Assembly (NCBI GenBank): GCA_021821085.1
Contig: JAKACV010000012.1
Coordinates: 1-57,948 of the forward strand
DNA length: 57,948 nucleotides
DNA from: Bacillota bacterium
Lineage (GTDB): Bacteria > Bacillota > Bacilli > Alicyclobacillales > SLC66
Reading direction: 5' to 3'
The position numbers were made by a program, and so were the translations under genes. Shown one piece after another: positions 6,275 to 57,948 of the stretch (the first letter of the stretch is position 1; the number at the start of each line of letters is the position of its first letter). The notes under the pieces are model-generated. The model had not been told where the DNA came from, ran no database searches, and saw nothing but the letters and a program-made list of their open reading frames with translations.

Positions 6275-7939
6275 ATGAAAGTCAGCAAGATGCGTATGTT
6301 GGGCGTTGTTGCCTCGATGACAATGCTCGGAACTGCGCTCGCAGGATGTGGAACGCAATCCGCAACGACGTCACAAGGCGGCACGACCGCAAGTGGAGGT
6401 AGCACACAACCGGTTTATGGGGGAACCTTAACACTCGATCTGTTAAGTCAATTTCCACATCTTGATCCGGCGAAAGCATATGACACTACTTCAAATGAAG
6501 CGGTGGAACAGTTTTATAATACGTTGGTTACCTATCAGGGAACTACAAATAAAATAATTCCTGACTTGGCGACCTACACCATTTCAAATGGTGGCAAGGT
6601 GTATACATTTCACATCAAAAAGGCGAAGTTTTGGAACGGAGACCCGGTTACGGCGCAAAGTTTCATCACGGAGTTTGAACGTGTACTGAACAACAACATG
6701 CAATCAGGTGGACAAGGCTTTGTCGATCCGTTGATTCAGGGTTCAGCAGCGTATGTATCTGGCATGGCAAAAACAGTTTCGGGACTTACGGCAATTAACA
6801 ACAGTACACTACAGATTACCTTAATGCACCCAAGCGCTACGTTCTTGTACGTGTTGGCCATGCCGTTTTTCTCGGCTGTGGATCCATCGTATATCGCTGC
6901 GCATTCAGAGTCTTATATCGACACGCATCCGATGGGGACTGGTCCTTTTGAACTTTCGTCCTACACGCCAGGCAAAGACTATATCTTGACGAAGAACCCT
7001 AATTATTTTGTGAAGGGAATTCCATACCTGAACAAAGTTGTATTTAATATTAACAATTCGCCAAGTGCTGTTTTGTTCCACTTTGAACAAGGGCAAACAG
7101 GGATGGTTTCTTGGAATCAAGGCGGCATACCGACAGAAGATTATTTGCCGCTTAGCAATAATCCAAAATACTCCGGTGATATCGTTAAAAAAACTGAGGT
7201 TGCAACAGACTATTTTGGGTTAAACACGACAATGGGACCTACTGCGAATGTGGCTGTGCGCCGTGCACTTGAGTACGCGGTGAATAAACAAGTGATCGTG
7301 CGGATTTTAGACGGGCTTGCGATACCGGCAAACCAAATTATTCCGCCCAGTATGCCATCTGGTTATGAACAACATCTACCAACAAATGCACAGTATACCT
7401 ATGATCCGGCCCTTGCGAAAAAACTGCTTGCAAAAGCAGGCTATCCACAGGGATTTAGCACGACGATTTACACCGACAACAGCAACCCAACCGATTTGAA
7501 AATGGCTGAAGCTGTGCAGCAAATGTTTGCTCAAGTTGGGGTCAAAGCACAGATAAATCAATCGTCGTGGAATACATTTCTCTCAAGTAATGAGACAGGT
7601 AAACAAAACATGTTTACTCTTGCGTGGCTCGAAGACTTCCCGGATCCTTCTGATTTCTTGAACACCTTGTTCAATTCAAATCAAATTCCGGTAAACAATT
7701 CGACTAACTACAGCAATTCGCAAGTCGACGCATTGTTGAATCAAGGGGCGCTGATGCCCGCAGGTACTGCTCGAGATAACGTGTATAAGCAAGCGCAAAA
7801 TATCATCATGGCGCAGGCGCCATGGATTCCACTTGTGTATCCTGTGTATGCAGCGGCTGTGCAACCATGGGTGAAGGGTTTTTATATTAATCCGAACCTA
7901 ATGGATCCTTTGCAGTACATGTGGATTGCTAAACAGTAA
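6275..7939 (+). CDS. Peptide ABC transporter substrate-binding lipoprotein, copy 1
   Basis: Extracytoplasmic solute-binding protein of family 5 (SBP_bac_5). Signal peptide of about 24 residues with lipobox TALAGC, lipidated Cys25, then a Ser/Thr/Gly-rich linker and the YGGTLTLDL start of the binding fold. 554 residues, normal for the family. Internal family features include WNGDPVTAQSF and RRALEYAVNKQ. Its closest relative is in this window (9185-10852); by eye the two are mostly identical. It lies between the C-type and B-type permease genes, an unusual order, and is followed by a very stable hairpin. RBS AAGGGGGT precedes the ATG. Confidence 0.9.
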   Translation: MKVSKMRMLGVVASMTMLGTALAGCGTQSATTSQGGTTASGGSTQPVYGGTLTLDLLSQFPHLDPAKAYDTTSNEAVEQFYNTLVTYQGTTNKIIPDLATYTISNGGKVYTFHIKKAKFWNGDPVTAQSFITEFERVLNNNMQSGGQGFVDPLIQGSAAYVSGMAKTVSGLTAINNSTLQITLMHPSATFLYVLAMPFFSAVDPSYIAAHSESYIDTHPMGTGPFELSSYTPGKDYILTKNPNYFVKGIPYLNKVVFNINNSPSAVLFHFEQGQTGMVSWNQGGIPTEDYLPLSNNPKYSGDIVKKTEVATDYFGLNTTMGPTANVAVRRALEYAVNKQVIVRILDGLAIPANQIIPPSMPSGYEQHLPTNAQYTYDPALAKKLLAKAGYPQGFSTTIYTDNSNPTDLKMAEAVQQMFAQVGVKAQINQSSWNTFLSSNETGKQNMFTLAWLEDFPDPSDFLNTLFNSNQIPVNNSTNYSNSQVDALLNQGALMPAGTARDNVYKQAQNIIMAQAPWIPLVYPVYAAAVQPWVKGFYINPNLMDPLQYMWIAKQ

Positions 7940-9015: not shown

Positions 9016-9085
9016 AGAATAAATAATAGAATTCAGAGAAATCACAGTTTTATTTATGGAATGTACCTTTATTTTATTTTCTGAC

Positions 9086-9114
9086 TTGACTAGTTATAAA
9101 AATAAACATAACAT
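9086..9114 (+). promoter_or_regulatory. Putative sigma-A promoter of the second binding-protein gene
   Basis: TTGACT at 9086-9091, 17-nt spacer, TAACAT at 9109-9114, about 70 nt upstream of the ribosome binding site at 9171. Together with the preceding terminator this suggests copy 2 is expressed on its own. Confidence 0.4.
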
Positions 9115-9184
9115 AGTGCTAGAATCATATTACACTTTCATTACAATTTCACACAGTCGTTACAATTCAGAAGGAGGACAATTA

Positions 9185-10852
9185 ATGAAACGGAATAAAC
9201 TGCGTTTGCTCGGAGTCGTCGCTTCTATGGCGATGCTTGGTACTGCCCTTGCTGGATGCGGCACCCAAACGGCAACATCACCATCAGCTTCTGGTACAAC
9301 TACGTCGAGCAATCAGCCGGTGTATGGTGGAACATTGACGATGGACTTGTCCAGTCAATTTCCACACCTTGATCCGGCAAAGGCGTATGATACGACTTCT
9401 GACGACGCTGTTGAGCAGTTCTATAATCAACTAGTCACCTATCAGGGTGCAACGAATAAGATTATTCCTGATTTAGCAACCTATACAGTGTCTGGTGGTG
9501 GAAAAGTATACACGTTCCATATTAAAAAGGCGAAGTTTTGGAATGGCGATCCTGTCACGGCACAAAGCTTTATTACCGAATTTGATCGCGTGCTCGAGAA
9601 TAGTATGCAATCAGGGGGGCAAGGTTTTGTCGATCCGTTGATTCAAGGGTCTGCAGCCTATGTGGCCGGTCATGCGAAGACAGTTTCCGGGTTAAAGGCA
9701 CTTAATCAAAATACGCTGCAAATTACGTTACTGCATCCTAGTGCCACATTCTTATATGTGTTAGCTATGCCATTCTTCTCGGCTGTAGATCCCTCTTATG
9801 TGGCTGCGCATCCTGAGCCCTACATTGATACACATCCGATGGGGACAGGCCCATTTGAATTGGCCTCTTATACGCCAGGTAAAGATTATATCTTGAAGAA
9901 AAATCCTAATTACTTTATTAAAGGGATTCCATACCTGAATAAGATCGTTTTTAATATTAACAATTCACCAAGTGCTGTGTTGTTTCACTTTGAGCAAGGT
10001 CAGACAGGGCTGATTTCGTGGAACCAAAACGGGATTCCGCCTGAGGATTACCTCCCGCTCATGAACAATCCAAAGTATAGCGGCGATGTTGTGAAACAAA
10101 CTGAGGTGGCTATCAATTATCTTGGATTGAATACCAAAGTTGGGCCTACAGCAAATGTGAATGTACGGCGTGCGCTTGAACATGCAGTGAACAAACAAGT
10201 GATCGTACGGATTTTGGATGGGCTTGCTGTTCCCGCAAATCAGATCATCCCACCGAGCATGCCGGCTGGTTATGAGTCGACTTTGCCTGCGAATGCGCAG
10301 TACACCTATGACCCGGCGCTTGCCAAGAAATTGCTTGCAAAAGCGGGGTATCCAACTGGATTTAGTACGACAATTTATACGGATAACACTAGTCCGACAG
10401 ACTTGAAGACGGCTGAAGCTGTGCAGCAAATGTTTGCGCAAGTAGGCGTACATGCTACTGTCAATCAAACGTCTTGGAACACATTTTTGACTAACAATGA
10501 AACAGGGAAACAAGGTATATTTACGCTTGCGTGGTTCGAGGATTTCCCAGATCCATCCGACTTTTTGAATACACTGTTTAATTCGAATGAAGCTCCAGTG
10601 AACAATTCAACGAATTACAGCAATCCTCAAGTTGATGCGTTGTTGAATGAAGGAGCGACCATGCCTGCTGGTACCGCACGTGATAACGTGTATAAGCAAG
10701 CACAAAACATCATCATGTCGCAAGCGCCGTGGATTCCACTCGTGTATCCAGTTTATGATGCGGCGGTACAACCTTGGGTTAAAGGATTTTACATCAATCC
10801 AAACTTGATGGATCCATTGCAAAACATTTGGATTGCTCCGCATAGCTCTTGA
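9185..10852 (+). CDS. Peptide ABC transporter substrate-binding lipoprotein, copy 2
   Basis: Family 5 solute-binding lipoprotein, 555 residues, a close paralogue of the 6275 gene. Signal peptide with lipobox TALAGC and Cys25, the same linker type and the same fold motifs (WNGDPVTAQSF, YTPGKDYIL, RRALEHAVNKQ). A longer reading frame is open from 9056, but ATG 9185 has AAGGAGGA 6 nt upstream and starts exactly at the signal peptide, so it was chosen. The DNA differs from copy 1 at many third positions, so the duplication is not very recent. It probably shares the single permease/ATPase set, giving a second ligand specificity or expression mode (inference). Confidence 0.9.
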   Translation: MKRNKLRLLGVVASMAMLGTALAGCGTQTATSPSASGTTTSSNQPVYGGTLTMDLSSQFPHLDPAKAYDTTSDDAVEQFYNQLVTYQGATNKIIPDLATYTVSGGGKVYTFHIKKAKFWNGDPVTAQSFITEFDRVLENSMQSGGQGFVDPLIQGSAAYVAGHAKTVSGLKALNQNTLQITLLHPSATFLYVLAMPFFSAVDPSYVAAHPEPYIDTHPMGTGPFELASYTPGKDYILKKNPNYFIKGIPYLNKIVFNINNSPSAVLFHFEQGQTGLISWNQNGIPPEDYLPLMNNPKYSGDVVKQTEVAINYLGLNTKVGPTANVNVRRALEHAVNKQVIVRILDGLAVPANQIIPPSMPAGYESTLPANAQYTYDPALAKKLLAKAGYPTGFSTTIYTDNTSPTDLKTAEAVQQMFAQVGVHATVNQTSWNTFLTNNETGKQGIFTLAWFEDFPDPSDFLNTLFNSNEAPVNNSTNYSNPQVDALLNEGATMPAGTARDNVYKQAQNIIMSQAPWIPLVYPVYDAAVQPWVKGFYINPNLMDPLQNIWIAPHSS

Positions 10853-12879: not shown

Positions 12880-14562
12880 ATGGAAGAACGGGAGAAAAAC
12901 TCGAAAATTGTACCGTTTGAGCCAGATGCTGCCTTTTTCTTTGAGCGAGGAGTTCGATTTCTCAATCGACACGATTTGTCTCGTGCATTAAAATCGTTTG
13001 AGCGTGCGGTACAATGTGAACCAAGTAATGCGGTGAATCATTGCAATTTGGCTGGCGTCTTATCGGAATTGGGTGATTTTGAGAAATCAAACGAAATTCT
13101 ACAAAGCGTTTTAACGGATCTCGCGCCAGACATGACGGAATGTTATTTCTATATGGCCAATAATTATGCAAACCTTGGGGAATATGAGTTAGCGGAAGAA
13201 CATGTCGTTAAATATTTGGAAGTTGATCCAACGGGAGAGTTTGCACCGGATGCTGATGAGATGCTTGATGTTCTCATTCATGAATTTGGTGGTGGAGACA
13301 TCCTGCGTGAAAGTAGGCGTAAACAACAGGAGTCAAGTAAAGAACACGATCTTGCTCGAAATTTATTAGAAGAAGGGAAGTTTCATGAAGCAAGTGCATT
13401 GCTTGCGAAAGAAATTGAGTTGCAGCCAGATGCGGTAGCTGCGCGCAATAACCTTGCGTTGGCCAAGTATTACCTGGGCCACATTGATGCTGCGATTGAA
13501 CTTACACGTGAAGTTCTTGAGTTAGAATCGAAAAATGTTCATGCATTGTGTAATCTTGCTGTATTTATTCGACACCGTGGTCAGCATGAGGAATATCGTC
13601 AATTGATTTCGCTTTTGACGAAGTTAATGCCCCTCCAATTTGATCAAGGATACAAGTTGGCGACAACATTGGGTATTTTAGGTGAGCATCAAGCTGCCTA
13701 TCGTATTTTTTTGCAACTCGTGCAGTTTGGCGATCGGCATGATCCAACTCTATACTTTGCATTGGCGGCAGCAAGCGCAAATTTAAATCGCTTCAAACAA
13801 TCGCGACAGTGGATGATGGAGGTACAAGCGCTTGATCCAGAGAGCGGAATCGCCGATTATTATTTGCAGGAAATTGACCGTGCGATTGAAAAGGGTGATC
13901 GGGTGCTCCTTAGCTATAGCTACCAACTTCCATTTCATTTACGATCGAACCTGAATTCGCAGACACGGACAGGGACATTTGCTAAAATTGGCGCGTGGGC
14001 AAAGGATCCTACGGTTCGTTCTTCCCTGTATTTTGCCTTGTTTAGAGGTCCGCGGGCAACGAAACGCGAAGCACTTCAAGCATTAGTTGTACTGCATGAT
14101 GCGGAGACGATTCATATTTTACGCGACTTTGTCCGTGATCCTACTCAGGGTGAAGACATGGTGTGGAATGGGCTGTTTGTATTGCAGTCCATGCACGTGA
14201 CAGGAGCGGTGGAGGCATTTGTAGGAGGTCAATTGGTCACGTTGCAGTTGCCTGCGCGCGACGAACGAATGTTCTCGTGGAATGCGATATTGGAAGCTGT
14301 GTATCATGAAGTGGAGGAAGCGCTACTCGTGCGGGATACGGATTTGGTCGATCTTGCCTACGAAATTTGGATTCGTTATTTGATGAATGTTTATACGGAT
14401 TTACCGAAAATCGTAAAACGCAGAGTGTGGTCTGCTGCCTTGGAATATGTGGTTCGCCGGACCTCAGGGAGAACAGAGCCTCAAGCGATTGTGGCGAGTC
14501 GTTACGAAGTCTCCGTCAAGGCGCTCGCGAAGGCCGCACAAGCCATTACGATGACACTATAA
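12880..14562 (+). CDS. Tetratricopeptide-repeat protein (YvcD-like)
   Basis: 560-residue soluble protein. Residues about 15-130 and 140-330 consist of degenerate 34-residue TPR units, with typical N-L-A and Y-L-G positions (NHCNLAGVLSELGDFEKSNE, ARNNLALAKYYLGHIDAA). The C-terminal 200 residues form a helical, HEAT-like region with no recognised motif. B. subtilis has a TPR gene, yvcD, at the same place between his and the rapZ block, which supports orthology. No signal peptide or membrane helix. Function unknown; TPRs suggest a scaffold for protein partners. The stop codon lies inside the 5-bp target duplication of the repeat that follows. Confidence 0.8.
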   Translation: MEEREKNSKIVPFEPDAAFFFERGVRFLNRHDLSRALKSFERAVQCEPSNAVNHCNLAGVLSELGDFEKSNEILQSVLTDLAPDMTECYFYMANNYANLGEYELAEEHVVKYLEVDPTGEFAPDADEMLDVLIHEFGGGDILRESRRKQQESSKEHDLARNLLEEGKFHEASALLAKEIELQPDAVAARNNLALAKYYLGHIDAAIELTREVLELESKNVHALCNLAVFIRHRGQHEEYRQLISLLTKLMPLQFDQGYKLATTLGILGEHQAAYRIFLQLVQFGDRHDPTLYFALAAASANLNRFKQSRQWMMEVQALDPESGIADYYLQEIDRAIEKGDRVLLSYSYQLPFHLRSNLNSQTRTGTFAKIGAWAKDPTVRSSLYFALFRGPRATKREALQALVVLHDAETIHILRDFVRDPTQGEDMVWNGLFVLQSMHVTGAVEAFVGGQLVTLQLPARDERMFSWNAILEAVYHEVEEALLVRDTDLVDLAYEIWIRYLMNVYTDLPKIVKRRVWSAALEYVVRRTSGRTEPQAIVASRYEVSVKALAKAAQAITMTL

Positions 14563-14719
14563 GAGGTTGTTCAAAAAGGGGCGAGAACTCTGCGGCGCAG
14601 GGCTTCGGCTTGTGCTGGACATGCGTGCTCATGTACCACCTATCGTACACTCCGCGCGCATGTCCAGACTTCACCAAACCCCTGCTTGCATCTTACCTCA
14701 ACCCTTTTGGAACAGACAC
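14563..14719 (+). mobile_element. 157-bp palindromic MITE-like repeat, copy 1
   Basis: Element flanked by TATAA on both sides (14558-14562 and 14720-14724). The ends GAGGTTGTTC and GAACAGACAC are inverted repeats, imperfect in the last bases. Arms match in boxes at 14563-14585/14697-14719, 14597-14608/14674-14685, 14615-14625/14657-14667 (CTGGACATGCG) and 14632-14636/14645-14649 (TGTAC), around CACCTATC. The last five bases (GACAC) differ from the GGCTC end of the other copies and match the left flank instead. It lies between the TPR stop and selB. No coding capacity of its own is supported. Confidence 0.85.
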
Positions 14720-14742
14720 TATAAGAGGATCGGTGGTTACGC

Positions 14743-16647
14743 GTGGATTTCGTGATTGTGGGTACGGCTGGACATATCGACCATGGTAAAACTGCGTTGG
14801 TTAAAGCGCTTACGGGAATTGATACGGATCGAACACGCGAGGAAAAAGAGCGGGGCATTTCCATTGAACTTGGATTTGCCCCGCTCTTATTGCCAACGGG
14901 ACAACGCATTGGGATTGTAGATGTACCTGGTCATGAGCGATTTATTCGCAATATGTTGGCGGGTGCTGGCGGGATGGACCTGATTTTACTTGTGATCGAT
15001 GCGCGTGAAGGCATGATGCCACAAACGCGTGAACATGTGGATATTTTACAAATGCTTGAATTAACTGAAGGGATCGTGGTTGTTACAAAAGTGGATCTTG
15101 TGGACGATGAATGGCTTCTACTTATGCATGAGGAAATTCGCTCACAGCTGAGAGGCACATTTTTGGAGAACAGTCCGCTAGTAGATGTCTCTGCCCTGAC
15201 AGGTCAAGGATTAGATGAGTTGCGTGTCGTCATTGCAAAGTCAATTTCACACGTTCAGCCCAAATCAAGTGTGGGTGCACTTAGGCTACCACTTGATCGC
15301 GTATTTACTGTCACGGGATTTGGAACCGTTGTAACAGGCACGGTGTGGCGAGGACAAGTGCATGTGGGTGATATGATGGAACTGTTACCTGCCAAAGAAC
15401 AGGTGCGTATTCGGTCAATTCAAGTGCATGGAGAACAAGTGCAAACGGCTGTAGCCGGTCAGCGGGCTGCCGTGGCTTTTACAAGTGTACGTACGGATGT
15501 GAGACGGGGGATGACACTTGCTGAACCAAAGGTTCTGAACCCAAGCCGTTTACTTGATGTGCGTATACGCGTATTGCCAGATAGCCCATTTGCTTTGCAT
15601 CATCGGACGCGTGTGCGCTTTTACAACGGAACCGCAGAAGTGATTGGACGGATGTTGCTCCTGCGCGATCAAGAAGTACTTGCTGGGGAGGAGGGACTCG
15701 CACAAATCCTGTTAGAGCAACCTGTGGTGGTTGAAGCACGAGACCACTTTGTCATCAGAAGTTTCTCACCAATGCATACGCTTGGTGGCGGGGTTGTCAT
15801 TGATCCACATCCTGTTCGGCTACATCGTCGTCATAGTGAGGCTGTTTTTGAGCAGTTGATGCGACGTGAAGGTGGCAGTTTGCATGAACGAGTGCTCGAT
15901 GCGATCATATCAGATCCTGAACTATCTTTGGTCGATTTAGCAAGTCTAACGGGAGCCTTGCAAGAGGAAGTAGAAGCGACTCGAATGGAGCTTGTTGCGT
16001 TTGGAGAGGTTATCTGCTATGAAGGCCAATTGTGGATTCCGACAAGTCGGATGGCAGCATGGGCAAGTGAATTTCTAGTAGGTTTAGATGATTACTACAG
16101 AAAAAATACATATGATGTATGGATGCCAAAATCGGTCGTCTATCAAATGCTAAAGGCGCTTGGTGTTCCAATGCGAGTGCAGGATGTTTTGTTGCAGGAT
16201 TTATCGGAGAATGGTCATATTGTTGTGGAGACAGAACGCGTGCAAAAAGAGGGACGGCAAGTTTCGCTATCGCTTGAAGAAAAGAAGATCAGTTCTCTAA
16301 TTATGGACCAGATGAAAGAACATCCTTTTTCCCCACCAACCGTTCAAGAACTTGAGAAAGATTATAAAGGGCAAGAGAAGAGGGTACGGCAAGTTCTTCA
16401 TGCGCTTGTGCAGGCAGATGAAGTCACTTTTCTTAACCAAGAGATCTTTTTGTCTCCACGCGCATTGCTTCATGTTGAAGCGGCAGTGCGCGAATTGTAC
16501 GACGAGCAAGGACCGTTTACGGTTGCAGATGTTCGAGATCAATTAGCGACGAGCCGCAAATTTGCAGTGGCTATCCTTGAATATTTTGATCGCCAGAAAA
16601 AAACACGCCGCAATGGAGATGTGCGTGTGTATCTTCGCCGTGGATGA
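14743..16647 (+). CDS. selB: Selenocysteine-specific elongation factor SelB
   Basis: Translational GTPase delivering Sec-tRNA to UGA codons bearing a SECIS element. G1 motif GHIDHGKT at residues 10-17, G3 DVPGHE near 59, G4 TKVD near 115, then EF-Tu-like beta domains, and a C-terminal half with four winged-helix domains that bind SECIS RNA (the stretch from about 380 to 634 has the expected size). 634 residues, full length. GTG start with GGTGG 6 nt upstream. SelA, SelD and tRNA-Sec are not in this window, so selB is orphaned here. It is followed 38 nt later by aroA, and the pair is bracketed by inverted repeat copies. Confidence 0.93.
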
Positions 16648-16685
16648 ACCTGACAATATCAAGTAGTTATTAGGAGAGAGTAGGC

Positions 16686-17987
16686 ATGAAGGACACATCA
16701 GAAGAGACGGTATATGAAGTCCCGATTTGTCGTCACCCCATCAGAGCGCAGGTGATTGTGCCAGGGTCAAAGTCGATTACGAATCGGGCGCTGCCGATGG
16801 CAGCTTTGGCAAACGGGAAGACTCGATTGCGTGGTGCTTTATTTTCGGACGATAGTCGCTATTTCATTCAATCACTACGCAGGTTGGGATATCATGTCGA
16901 GACAGACGAACTGATGAAAGAAGTCATTATAGATGGGGCTGGAACTGATCCACTTGAACATGAGCGGGGCCTTGATTTATTTGTTGGCAATTCGGGAACA
17001 AGTGCCCGTTTTTTATCTGCATTTGTGAGCCTCGGTAAAGGTCGTTATCGTATTGATGGCGTTCAGCGCATGCGGGAACGACCGATTGCTGCCCTATTGT
17101 CTGCATTGCGTGACCTTGATGTGCAGATCCACGACGAATTAGGTACCGGATGTCCTCCCATTTTGATTGAAGCAAACGGATTACGTGGTGGGAGAGTAGA
17201 GATGAACGGGAAAGATAGCAGCCAATTTGTGTCGGGTTTATTGATTGCGGCTCCTTATGCAAAAGAACCGATCTCGATTGTTGTGCAGGGAGAGTTGGTG
17301 TCTGCGCCGTATGTGGAGATGACATTAGCAATGATGAGGCAATTCGGTGTGCAGGTCGAAAAAAAGGGGAATATATTCCACGTGATTACAGGGGACTACC
17401 TTGCACAAGATTATGCCATTGAACCAGATGCATCTGGGGCTTCCTACTTTTTAGCGGCGACTGCGATTTGCGGAGGACAGGTCAGGATTATGGGCCTCGG
17501 ACAACAGTCGCTGCAAGGGGATGCAAGGTTTGCGCACATCCTTGCGGATATGGGATGTACAGTTCGGTATGAGAAGGAGTATATTGAACTGCTTGGACCA
17601 GTCGATGGGCTTAAAGGCATCGATATTGATTTGTTTGCTATGTCCGATATGGTGCCCACGTTAGCCGCGATTGCACCATTTGCTAAGGAAAAGGTGCGCA
17701 TCCGAAATGTGGCCAATGTTCGCATCAAAGAAACAGATCGCATTCGCGCGTGCGTTACGGAACTTCGTCGCTTTGGTGTTACGGTTACAGAATTTGAAGA
17801 TGGGATGGAAATAGAGCCGTGTGCGCAATTGCAGGAAGGTGTTACTGTACATACGTATGATGATCATCGTATGGCTATGGCTTTTGCCATCACAGGATTA
17901 AAAGTTCCGGGAACGCGCATCGCCAATCCAGCTTGCACGGCAAAAACGTACCCTGAATTTTTCCGGCATCTAGAAAATATAGTGTAG
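16686..17987 (+). CDS. aroA: 3-phosphoshikimate 1-carboxyvinyltransferase (EPSP synthase)
   Basis: Shikimate pathway enzyme joining shikimate-3-phosphate and PEP. 433 residues, with VPGSKSITNRAL near 27, NSGTSARF near 101, KDSSQFVSGLL near 178, catalytic Asp in MSDMVPTLA, and RIKETDRI and TYDDHRMAMAF late. The position of E. coli Pro101 is Phe, so the active-site loop is not the classic class I NAGTAMRP. ATG start behind GGAGAG. Downstream is the inverted repeat copy 2, which could act as its terminator. Confidence 0.93.
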   Translation: MKDTSEETVYEVPICRHPIRAQVIVPGSKSITNRALPMAALANGKTRLRGALFSDDSRYFIQSLRRLGYHVETDELMKEVIIDGAGTDPLEHERGLDLFVGNSGTSARFLSAFVSLGKGRYRIDGVQRMRERPIAALLSALRDLDVQIHDELGTGCPPILIEANGLRGGRVEMNGKDSSQFVSGLLIAAPYAKEPISIVVQGELVSAPYVEMTLAMMRQFGVQVEKKGNIFHVITGDYLAQDYAIEPDASGASYFLAATAICGGQVRIMGLGQQSLQGDARFAHILADMGCTVRYEKEYIELLGPVDGLKGIDIDLFAMSDMVPTLAAIAPFAKEKVRIRNVANVRIKETDRIRACVTELRRFGVTVTEFEDGMEIEPCAQLQEGVTVHTYDDHRMAMAFAITGLKVPGTRIANPACTAKTYPEFFRHLENIV

Positions 17988-18008
17988 TGAAACAACTGAA
18001 ATTTTATA

Positions 18009-18165
18009 GAGCCTGTTCCAAAAGGGTTGAGGTAAGATGCAAGCAGGGGTTTGGTGAAGTCTGGACATGCGCGCGGAGTGTACGATAGGTGGTACATGAG
18101 CACGCATGTCCAGCACAAGCCGAAGCCCTGCGCCGCAGAGTTCTCGACCCTTTTTGAACAACCTC
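18009..18165 (-). mobile_element. 157-bp palindromic MITE-like repeat, copy 2 (inverted)
   Basis: Reverse-oriented copy, flanked on the plus strand by TTATA (18004-18008 and 18166-18170), that is TATAA in element orientation. Same box structure as copy 1. It shares with copy 1 the TTTTGGAAC variant in the right arm, where copies 3 and 4 have TTTTTGAAC. It lies 21 nt after the aroA stop. Confidence 0.85.
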
Positions 18166-18280
18166 TTATAGTAATTTCCAGTCATGAGATCTTCATACGC
18201 TTGTAATAGCTATGCAATCTCGATGACGTATGATCTTCTTGTAGCACATTTGACCCCCTTTTGATGATTGTATCTGCGTG

Positions 18281-18316
18281 ACGAAGGCAATGGCCTTTCG
18301 TTGCGTCTTTTTTTTT
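18281..18316 (+). terminator. Possible terminator before the ROK kinase gene
   Basis: ACGAAGG pairs with CCTTTCGT with one bulged base. A run of nine T residues follows after a 6-nt gap, so the geometry is not ideal. It would end transcripts coming from selB-aroA. Confidence 0.45.
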
Positions 18317-18322
18317 GTGGCA

Positions 18323-18331
18323 TGTTACAAT
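18323..18331 (+). promoter_or_regulatory. Extended -10 promoter of the ROK-rapZ-yvcK-whiA unit
   Basis: TGT followed by TACAAT (18326-18331); TTGCGT lies 19 nt upstream. The predicted transcript start near 18338 excludes the long upstream frame as coding. Confidence 0.5.
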
Positions 18332-18379
18332 AAAGGTATCACCATGTCAATGGTTGGCATGGGATTCGTCGAGGGGGAA

Positions 18380-19321
18380 ATGGTCTTGCGTGTTTCGGTT
18401 GGCATTGATTTGGGTGGAACGTTTATTAAAGGTGCACTTATCGATGAACAGGGGAATCTTCTCGTAAAAGATGAGGTGCCAACAGAAGCGAGCAACGGAG
18501 CTCAGTGGATTTTAAAACGAATCGAAGAATTGACGCTACAACTCATCGTACAAAGTAGCACGAAACGCAGTGAAGTCGTGGGATTGGGAATTGGCATACC
18601 GGGATTTATTGACCCAAGTCGCGGACTTGCAGAAGAAGTGATCAATATTGGATGGCATGATGTACCGGTGATTGCGCCTTTGCAAACGGCACTTGATATG
18701 CCTGTGTATATGGAGAATGATGCGAATCTTGCGGCGTTAGGTGAAGCTTGGGTCGGGGCAGGGCGTGGATATCGCAACGCATTGTGCATCACCTTAGGTA
18801 CAGGCGTTGGCGGTGGTGTTATTATTAATGGAAAAGTATTGCAAGGAGAAAGCCATATGGCTGGTGAAATTGGGCATTTTGTGCTTGACCCAGATGGGGC
18901 ACCATGTAATTGTGGGCATCGGGGTTGTCTTGAGACCGTTTCATCCGCTACGGGTGTTGTTCGTCTGGCACGTGAGAGAATCGAACAAGGTGAACAAACT
19001 GAGATCCAAAAAGCGAATCTTACAGCAGCAACTGTATTTGCTGCAGCAGATCGTGGCGATCGAGTAGCACAAGCGATTGTGCACGAAGCTGCAGAGACGC
19101 TTGGGAGAGGATTGGCAATTGCCGCGAATCTGATTAACCCAGATGTCATTGTGATTGGCGGCGGGATGGCGCGTGCGGGAGAAACGTTGTTTACTCCGGT
19201 GCGTCTTGCATTTCAGGCATATGCTCTACGTCGTGTCGCTCAAGCGGTGACTCTTGTGCCAGCGTCACTTGGTAACGATGCAGGAGTTGTAGGAGCGGGC
19301 AAATTGGCCTTGTATCCGTAA
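18380..19321 (+). CDS. glcK: ROK-family sugar kinase, probable glucokinase
   Basis: Phosphorylates glucose or a related sugar with ATP in the cytosol. N-terminal ATP-binding GIDLGGTFIKG (residues 8-18), catalytic Asp in ENDANLAALGE, GTGVGGGVI phosphate loop, and the ROK zinc-binding signature CNCGHRGCLE near 176-185. About 313 residues, right for glucokinases of this family. Start uncertain: ATG 18380 and TTG 18386 are both in frame behind GAGGGGG, and ATG 18344 is possible just after the promoter. It sits 16 nt before rapZ. Substrate specificity is inferred from family only. Confidence 0.85.
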   Translation: MVLRVSVGIDLGGTFIKGALIDEQGNLLVKDEVPTEASNGAQWILKRIEELTLQLIVQSSTKRSEVVGLGIGIPGFIDPSRGLAEEVINIGWHDVPVIAPLQTALDMPVYMENDANLAALGEAWVGAGRGYRNALCITLGTGVGGGVIINGKVLQGESHMAGEIGHFVLDPDGAPCNCGHRGCLETVSSATGVVRLARERIEQGEQTEIQKANLTAATVFAAADRGDRVAQAIVHEAAETLGRGLAIAANLINPDVIVIGGGMARAGETLFTPVRLAFQAYALRRVAQAVTLVPASLGNDAGVVGAGKLALYP

Positions 19322-46884: not shown

Positions 46885-47241
46885 ACATATACAGAAGGAG
46901 AACTGTGGTTGCCATTGTCTATAAGAGGTTGCTCAAAAAGGGTCAAGAACTCTGCGGCGCAGGGCTTCGGCTTGTGCTGGACATGCGTGCTCATGTACCA
47001 CCTATCGTACACTCCGCGCGCATGTCCAGACTTCACCAAACCCCTGCTTGCATCTTACCTCAACCCTTTTTGAACAGGCTCTATAAGTATGGGGATTTCT
47101 GCAGTGCAAGCGAAACATATACAGGCAGTTCCTTTGGTGTTACAACAAACGGAGGAAGCGATGTATGAGGCCAAGCGGACTGGGAAGGACCGATTGGCAA
47201 TCCGCGAGAAAGATCCTTTACGCTTTGCCTTTTACAAATAA
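46885..47241 (+). pseudogene. GGDEF-domain remnant interrupted by repeat copy 3
   Basis: Right of the repeat, one frame reads SMGISAVQAKHIQAV (from 47086) and later EEAMYEAKRTGKDRLAI before TAA 47239-47241. This is the C-terminal end of a GGDEF (diguanylate cyclase) domain: the SIGIS strand and the ADEALYEAKR helix. Left of the repeat, the same frame reads TEGELWLPLSI (46891-46923) after a TGA at 46882. Removing the element plus one TATAA joins them as LPLSISMGIS, the expected strand. No upstream GGDEF sequence remains, so the gene was truncated too. The end overlaps the CoA-binding gene by 24 nt. Confidence 0.75.
46925..47081 (+). mobile_element. 157-bp palindromic MITE-like repeat, copy 3
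   Basis: Flanked by TATAA at 46920-46924 and 47082-47086. Arms 46925-46998 and 47007-47081 around CACCTATC. It carries small changes (GCTCAAAAAGGG at the left end, TCAAG in place of TCGAG) and the TTTTTGAAC right-arm variant. Inserted within GGDEF coding sequence. Confidence 0.88.
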
Positions 47242-47762: not shown

Positions 47763-47771
47763 TGTTATAAT
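47763..47771 (+). promoter_or_regulatory. Extended -10 box abutting repeat copy 4
   Basis: TGT followed by perfect TATAAT (47766-47771). The TAATA target duplication (47768-47772) is part of the box itself, so the insertion falls just after it and the predicted transcript start (about 47778) lies in the element. Confidence 0.6.
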
Positions 47772-47772
47772 A

Positions 47773-47930
47773 GAGGTTGTTCAAAAAGGGTCGAGAACTC
47801 TGCGGCGCAGGGGCTTCGGCTTGTGCTGGACATGCGTGCTCATGTACCCCCTATCGTACACTCCGCGCGCATGTCCAGACTTCACCAAACCCCTGCTTGC
47901 ATCTTACCTCAACCCTTTTTGAACAGGCTC
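47773..47930 (+). mobile_element. 158-bp palindromic MITE-like repeat, copy 4
   Basis: Flanked by TAATA at 47768-47772 and 47931-47935. One extra G in the second box (GCAGGGGCTT) makes it 158 bp, and the central loop is CCCCTATC instead of CACCTATC. The right end GAACAGGCTC is the consensus form. It lies between a -10 box and the thiolase gene. Confidence 0.88.
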
Positions 47931-47954
47931 TAATAGGGTGAAAACTACGAAAAA

Positions 47955-57737: not shown

Positions 57738-57822
57738 CGAGAAAACCTCCTTATTTAATTTTTTTTTGTAAAGTCTGTGCAGCATTGCTTTGATTCCCTA
57801 TAGTTATACCACTTATCTAATA

Positions 57823-57948
57823 GAGGTTGTTCAAAAAGGGGCGAGAACTCTGCGGCGCAGGGCTTCGGCTTGTGCTGGACATGCGTGCTCATGTACCACC
57901 TATCGTACACTCCGCGCGCATGTCCAGACTTCACCAAACCCCTGCTTG
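57823..57948 (+). mobile_element. Palindromic MITE-like repeat, copy 5 (cut by window end)
   Basis: The left flank carries TAATA at 57818-57822, and the first 126 bp match copy 1, including the GGGGCGAG variant. The right end and its target duplication lie outside the window. It sits upstream of the M20 peptidase, pointing away from it. Confidence 0.85.

Follow-up and report, generated by a model that had tools for sequence, protein, structure and literature searches.

A family of palindromic 157-bp mobile elements in Bacillota with IS1182-like ends and a conserved fold that probably works as RNA

The window analysed here, a 57,948-nucleotide stretch of the genome of a Bacillota bacterium, carries five copies of a palindromic element of 157 bp (Table 1). 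Upstream of the first copy is a TPR gene, whose stop codon it follows, and selB (14743-16644), the gene for the selenocysteine elongation factor SelB, comes directly after it. The second lies between an EPSP synthase gene and a ROK gene and the third between panD and a CoA-binding gene, and the fourth and fifth lie upstream of a thiolase gene and an M20 peptidase gene, respectively. Elsewhere in the window, two related genes for SBP_bac_5 solute-binding proteins (6275-7936 and 9056-10849) have in common a 300-bp stretch that is 74% identical, and no tRNA gene was found in the window by ARAGORN.

Table 1. Copies of the element in the window, their flanks and the landmarks of selected copies
Feature	Position	Strand	Remark
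Element copy 1, 157 bp	14563..14719	+	R2 match; right end GACAC
Element copy 2, inverted	18009..18165	-	R2 match
Element copy 3, 157 bp	46925..47081	+	R2 match
Element copy 4, 158 bp	47773..47930	+	R2 match; one inserted G
Element copy 5	57823..57948	+	R2 match; interrupted by contig end
Copy 1 left target-site duplication TATAA	14558..14562	.	includes stop codon of upstream TPR gene
Copy 1 right target-site duplication TATAA	14720..14724	.	flank
Copy 2 target-site duplication TTATA (+ strand reading)	18004..18008	.	flank
Copy 2 target-site duplication TTATA (+ strand reading)	18166..18170	.	flank
Copy 3 target-site duplication TATAA	46920..46924	.	flank
Copy 3 target-site duplication TATAA	47082..47086	.	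flank
Copy 4 target-site duplication TAATA	47768..47772	.	flank
Copy 4 target-site duplication TAATA	47931..47935	.	flank
Copy 5 left flank TAATA, presumed target-site duplication	57818..57822	.	right side beyond contig
Copy 3 left terminal inverted repeat, consensus GAGGTTGTTCAAAAAGGG	46925..46942	+	
Copy 3 right terminal inverted repeat GAGCCTGTTCAAAAAGGG	47064..47081	-	
Conserved internal loop, side 1	46947..46952	-	GAACTC on +, GAGTTC on likely RNA strand
Conserved internal loop, side 2	47053..47058	-	TCTTAC on +, GTAAGA on likely RNA strand
Copy 3 apical hairpin, motif CTCAyGTA..TACryTCCG	46990..47016	-	likely RNA strand CGGAryGTA..TACrTGAG
Copy 1 apical hairpin	14628..14654	-	same motif as copy 3

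The original prediction had placed five copies of an interrupted palindrome at these positions. A search with R2, a covariance model built from 29 Bacilli sequences, returned exactly these five in the window at E values up to 10, and the palindrome proved to be real: the copy at 46925 folds far better than its shuffles on both strands (-73.6 kcal/mol, z -9.1, on the + strand and -89.7 kcal/mol, z -10.0, on the - strand), with none of 200 shuffles folding as well. The borders of the element, GAG...CTC, are identical in the copies of its own genome and were also found in other genomes; in copy 1, the two last bases of the right end are off consensus. Perfect 5-bp direct repeats flank four of the five copies, and the fifth has a left flank only.

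The expectation of dozens to hundreds of copies per genome was borne out by a genome-wide count. In the 2.85-Mb genome, assembled in 107 contigs, a 24-nt core with at most three mismatches had 94 matches, 47 on each strand, and the reversed pattern had none. This number is a lower bound, since two more copies with a variant centre later turned up on contigs C69 and C87. Several contigs of this genome (C28, C48, C57, C71, C76, C100, C107 and others) start or end inside copies of the element, and the window's own contig likewise ends within one; thus, the assembly has been broken at the element and copy numbers are minimal. Perfect A/T-rich 5-bp duplications were present at 60 of the 69 own copies having both flanks, and in these 60 cases the first position was T in 51, the fourth was A or T in all and the fifth was A in 55. 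Among the matches listed for other genomes, 61 of 83 elements with the terminal-repeat pattern were also flanked by 5-bp duplications. In addition, copies 1 and 2 are missing from the syntenic DNA of two congeners (G016 and G017). When positions 12900-18600 of the window were compared with these genomes by blast, the collinear matches skipped both copies: the first skipped stretch measured 26 bp in G016 against 161 bp in the window and 17 bp in G017 against 152 bp, and the second measured 89 bp against 206 bp and 29 bp against 205 bp, respectively. The duplications, the fixed borders and the empty sites of the congeners show that the unit transposes as DNA. The 157-bp palindrome is therefore confirmed as a MITE, that is, a non-autonomous DNA transposon, with terminal inverted repeats at fixed borders, a duplication of constant length and empty sites in relatives.

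A number of copies depart from this plan. A 47-bp version in L132 (G013:C133, 1474-1520) consists of the ends and a few bases between perfect TTACA flanks, its core lost or never present; nothing is drawn from it here, because a deletion in situ explains it equally well as transposition. Very short elements of 35-96 bp with similar ends were observed in several genera, all of them lacking perfect duplications (L088, 1013-1108; L183, 1501-1535; L191, 1473-1518; L198, 1464-1518; L199, 1471-1518), and a solo 20-bp end has TATAA at both flanks (L128, 1501-1520; G000:C92:106421). Larger variants include a 280-bp element with an extra long hairpin inserted in one arm and TTTGA flanks on both sides (L133, G011:C248), a G015 subfamily (L166, L041, L165 and L164) whose left loop has gained a small additional hairpin, AATGGCGCAGGTATGCGCC, and a tandem array in which four units, all containing the apical motif and all matched by R2, recur every 185 bp (L376, G061, 1457-2126). 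In the own genome, the two ends of one copy are swapped relative to the interior (L009, 1060-1216), and two copies have the same end at both sides (L020, 1509-1665; L085, 956-1112); these three copies are cases of arm exchange or inversion inside the palindrome.

To identify a candidate partner, DDE_Tnp_1 proteins were searched for in six genomes and 30 of the loci were scanned for the ends of the element. The own genome contains an IS of 1638 bp with an intact transposase of 441 aa, ends GAGCGTGTCCGGAAAGC and the duplication TATTA, and its ends are a variant of the MITE ends. A truncated relative in the same genome (361 aa, 56% identical to the intact transposase over 353 residues) has the left end of the MITE, GAGGTTGTTCAAAAAG, exactly (16 bases), preceded by CTTATA. 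No intact IS with the exact MITE ends could be identified among the eight DDE_Tnp_1 matches of the own genome. In other genomes, the IS copies of G147 end in GAGCCTGTTCAAAAAG and GAGTCTGTTCAAAAAG and those of G033 and G056 mostly in GAGCGTGTCCGAAAAG. The presumed driver has the domains DUF772 and DDE_Tnp_1, and its best NCBIfam family is IS1182; as the two scores, 109.3 and 60.5 bits, stay under the curated equivalog cut-off of 270 bits, we call it IS1182-like only. Because the MITE has ends akin to those of the IS and the same duplication length, the element is most likely moved in trans by such an IS1182-like DDE transposase. Tn3-type ends of 38 bp, considered on account of the 5-bp duplication, were rejected: such ends start with GGGG, which is lacking here, and the partner is a DDE_Tnp_1 protein.

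The transposase itself was sparsely distributed. A protein like that of L250 was found at E <= 1e-20 in only 4 of 22 genomes tested, and none at this threshold in the element-bearing genomes G016, G011, G013 and G015, of which G016 and G011 are rich in the element; thus, the driver may have been lost, be more divergent or be a different one. That nothing close to the IS1182-like transposase was found in 18 of these 22 genomes would suit a mover unrelated to IS1182 that was missed by our search, but such a mover appears unlikely: the relic in the own genome carries the same 16-base end, similar ends recur in G147, G033 and G056, and L262 has the same 5-bp duplication length. An interior derived from the IS by deletion is a trait of classical deletion MITEs, although not of all MITEs. 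Here, neither R2 nor R1, a covariance model built from 19 interiors, had a match to the MITE interior in the tested IS loci; as far as these models can see, the interior is not an IS remnant and no derivation by deletion could be observed.

What the interior preserves was analysed in an alignment of 20 diverse sequences representing six sequence types (A, B, C, D, D' and E). RNAalifold predicted 40 pairs, 25 of which showed compensatory double changes. Paired cells made up 91.7%, compared with 75.6% in shuffled alignments and 26-46% when partners were slid, and covariation was 0.437 against 0.154 in the control; compensatory changes, a mark of structured RNA, therefore go beyond the controls. 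The stems were only 51% identical, against 84% for the ends. The original prediction had described the unpaired spacers as conserved, which holds for the loop beside the ends (95%) and the apical region (79%), whereas identity between genera falls to 49% in the middle loop and 44% in the terminal loop. The end-adjacent loop, GAACTC / TCTTAC, is conserved in the 20-sequence set and not phylum-wide; the apical motif is conserved phylum-wide. Two variable pairs of the apical stem were Watson-Crick in 96% and 97% of 74 distinct strings taken from all fetched loci, as opposed to 52% and 34% in shuffled controls; the search pattern had placed some constraint on the first position and none on the second. 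A wider alignment gave 84% paired cells against 55%, a value biased toward the structure since the alignment was fitted to a model. Both A4 and A5 are such model-fitted alignments and lean to the structure of the model, and A4 excludes the sources of five antisense-matched elements. Unpaired positions were more variable than the ends in every tested subfamily except A (six of seven).

Selection and very recent spread had been offered as alternative reasons for the likeness of the copies, and each applies at its own scale. Within the own genome, the copies hardly differ, and variation is equal at paired (1.1%) and unpaired (1.2%) positions, which indicates recent spread. Between genera, stems change and yet pairing and certain loops persist, which indicates selection. 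Thus, the interior is shown to be a folding unit conserved under selection on its base pairing, and it takes the form of a long rod in which two internal-loop motifs recur.

The two strands of the element were not equivalent in this respect. The reverse strand, on which the right end comes first, folded into the more stable structure in 200 of 205 distinct copies and in all 39 rows of a phylum-wide alignment, and consensus energies agreed in four alignments; in subfamily P, the reverse-strand fold was better in just 11 of 16. When single-sided stem changes were counted as distinct events in seven subfamilies, A-C cases on the + strand exceeded G-U cases (85 vs 51, p 0.0045), also without the ends (71 vs 37, p 0.0014). 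It should be noted that these p values are indicative, since the copies have common ancestry and the events are not fully independent. On the reverse strand, the A-C cases read as G-U. No such excess was present in subfamily B (12 A-C vs 13 G-U). At unpaired positions the corresponding transitions leaned the opposite way (0.28 vs 0.40 per site), and a mutation bias therefore fails as an explanation. Furthermore, 232 of 311 unpaired consensus positions are purines on the reverse strand, and two G-U pairs of that strand are kept in 19 of the 20 aligned sequences. By eye only, the purine-rich loops look K-turn-like. A translation signal on this strand (GGAG, a hairpin and AUG/GUG) was considered and dropped, as no conserved frame could be seen to follow it. 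Since such strand asymmetry fits a structured RNA and not a symmetric DNA palindrome, the sequence data support, without proving it, that the working form is an RNA read in the right-to-left direction.

Two explanations that need no RNA were weighed against these observations. The palindrome could act as DNA only, as in a plain MITE whose arms are transposase sites or form a cruciform. The terminal repeats do co-vary as two transposase sites would, being TGTTCAAAAAG in most subfamilies and TGTCCGAAAAG in D'. However, subfamilies A, B and C, which have the same ends, differ in their stem boxes and yet stay paired, the unpaired motifs of the two arms are unlike each other (GAACTC on the left, TCTTAC on the right), and the strong strand asymmetry would be unexpected in a symmetric DNA structure, all of which makes a DNA-only role decidedly unlikely. 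The other explanation assigns the covariation to replication template switching, to which palindromes are prone, with one arm copied onto the other and no selection involved. Although L020 and L085, with one end twice, and L009, with its ends swapped, indicate that arm exchange occurs, this process should homogenise the internal loops, which instead stay unpaired and arm-specific across genera. One-sided wobble intermediates exist and lean to one strand, and across the phylum the pattern of the short apical stem with its loop is retained; template switching as the source of the covariation is thus hardly credible.

The distribution of the element was examined at several taxonomic levels. DNA-level matches placed it in 7 of 18 genomes of its family, and the strict end-to-end pattern in 6 of 59 genomes of its order, all six from its own family. 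R1 had matches at E <= 0.01 in 17 of 398 genomes of the class, the weakest of which, in G129, may be due to chance. Among named genomes, the end-to-end pattern occurred in at least 17 named Bacilli genera and in three MAGs (80 loci listed); culturable carriers include Terrilactibacillus laevilacticus, Pseudalkalibacillus decolorationis and Priestia abyssalis. A loose form of the apical motif was found in 65 of 83 elements among the matches listed, which implies that some elements with these ends have another core. In a 398-genome sample of the phylum, CTCAyGTA…TACryTCCG, the apical motif, had 251 matches in 20 genomes, compared with six matches when the pattern was reversed; of these 20 genomes, 15 lie outside the class and 17 contain more than one match. 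R2 matched at least one locus at E < 1e-3 in all 15 out-of-class genomes, where loci had been preselected by the apical motif, itself worth ~21 bits (second match in L391). Since this motif both chose the loci and scores by itself, we claim the whole rod for only nine of the 15, in which it was clearly matched (above 44 bits); the remaining six had weaker matches of 24 to 38 bits. The ends of the out-of-class copies vary, some being GAGGATGTTCAAAAAG or GAAGATGTTCGAAAAG and others unrelated. One copy lies in a 16S-23S rRNA gene spacer (L383, G614, match 1456-1570, - strand).

We also analysed the genomic surroundings of 64 own copies on the basis of crude gene calls. Between co-directional genes, 19 copies ran along the likely RNA strand and 11 along the other strand, and no clear orientation bias could be observed. 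Copies were found between convergent genes in 17 cases, between divergent genes in 6 and inside an open frame in 11, and the median distance was 43.5 bp to gene 3' ends (64 ends) and 113.5 bp to 5' ends (42 ends). Closeness to 3' ends and the share of convergent sites are what would be expected if the folded element were useful to its hosts in place, as a terminator or as an mRNA-stabilising 3' end of the kind proposed for the pneumococcal SPRITE; moreover, both ends read CCCTTTTTG, which gives a stem followed by T residues in either direction. On the other hand, neutral avoidance of promoters and genes would yield the same placement, the 11 copies called inside open frames fit such a use poorly, and a scan for terminators and promoters found nothing at the copies beyond chance, leaving them unflagged as terminators. 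With two of the window copies also missing from congeners, a host function in place appears very unlikely.

As had been predicted, no named repeat family was recovered in the searches run: no Rfam family matched the window at gathering score or 29 loci of several subfamilies at permissive E values. A self-cleaving ribozyme, a riboswitch or another catalogued RNA was rejected, the low-E Rfam matches being microRNA hairpins that we took as chance. A REP/RAYT-type repeat was ruled out by the terminal repeats and the duplications. A phage or plasmid origin was likewise set aside, as the own element had no plasmid match and a Bacillaceae-type copy had no plasmid or phage match; the L190 type had two partial matches in Paenibacillus plasmids, both without annotation. 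The exact core pattern had no match in genome-contig and viral-contig collections, which may omit near relatives. The four exact 16-base end strings did not occur in the literature searched, and, among the matches listed, the papers containing at least two of five 9-base core strings appear unrelated to the element; this literature included only a minority of subscription papers, and the element may have been described before. The outcome named beforehand as speaking against a new repeat was a match to a described IS, MITE or RNA family. It applies in part: the element does have the anatomy of a MITE and IS1182-like ends, but no described MITE or RNA with this interior was found in the searches run.

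Among known repeats, the host range and ends of ERIC, BIME and Correia elements differ from those of the element. They are palindromic and intergenic like it, a likeness of description and not of sequence, and they are able to affect transcripts (PMC3049150). In the Bacillus cereus group, bcr1 is described as a MITE-like repeat of ~150 bp in tens of copies, with a 5-base TTTAT motif, which is transcribed in UTRs, folded and restricted to that group (PMC6542083, PMC3446304, PMC2267715). Together with bcr2 and bcr3, bcr1 resembles the element in being a small, folded, mobile repeat that is transcribed or could be; the element is set apart by its phylum-wide occurrence, conserved loops and strand signal, on description and not on sequence. 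In Streptococcus pneumoniae, RUP, with its IS630-like ends, is regarded as mobilised in trans, copies of BOX are expressed, and BOX, RUP and SPRITE are all virtually confined to S. pneumoniae and S. mitis (PMC3049150). These three are also small interspersed folded repeats, and, compared by description only, they are unlike the element in ends, partner IS and breadth. We therefore file the element as a new, structure-bearing MITE family, with its nearest candidates (bcr1, BOX, RUP and SPRITE) compared by description only.

Our main reading, to which we give a probability of about 75%, is that the element is a non-autonomous transposon driven by an IS1182-like transposase, whose interior is a selected fold working as RNA from right to left. 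Judging from the similar ends and the common duplication length, an IS1182-like DDE transposase would recognise the MITE ends in trans and insert the element into A/T-rich TWNWA sites, giving rise to the 5-bp duplication. Selection would favour the persistence and spread of the element lineage instead of a site-bound function in the host; this is probable because the fold is common between species, whereas the insertion sites are not. With regard to the role of the fold, read-through transcripts would fold into the rod and a conserved cellular RNA-binding factor would recognise its purine-rich loops, and binding of the factor might shield the transcript or make insertions beside genes tolerable. 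Recognition of the folded read-through transcript by such a factor is the likeliest role we can suggest, although we advance it only tentatively. That the RNA or hairpin takes part directly in transposition seems doubtful by comparison, and a trans-acting regulatory RNA quite unlikely. It is also conceivable, though less likely than not, that the elements form a phylum-wide lineage of selfish structured RNA with IS1182-type ends, in which the right-to-left fold is needed for amplification or persistence and has outlived changes of the ends; the binding partner of the fold would then be the transposase, the transcription machinery, or a protein of the ribosomal or K-turn type.

MITEs are usually seen as inert leftovers of IS. 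Here, among genera of Bacilli, a MITE interior has retained both its pairing and its fixed loops, and the apical hairpin is kept phylum-wide; there can be more than 90 copies in a genome. If active as RNA, the element would add a mobile RNA family, unmatched by Rfam release 15 and sited beside genes in many Bacillota, and would provide a tractable system for learning whether the persistence of a DNA transposon benefits from an RNA fold.
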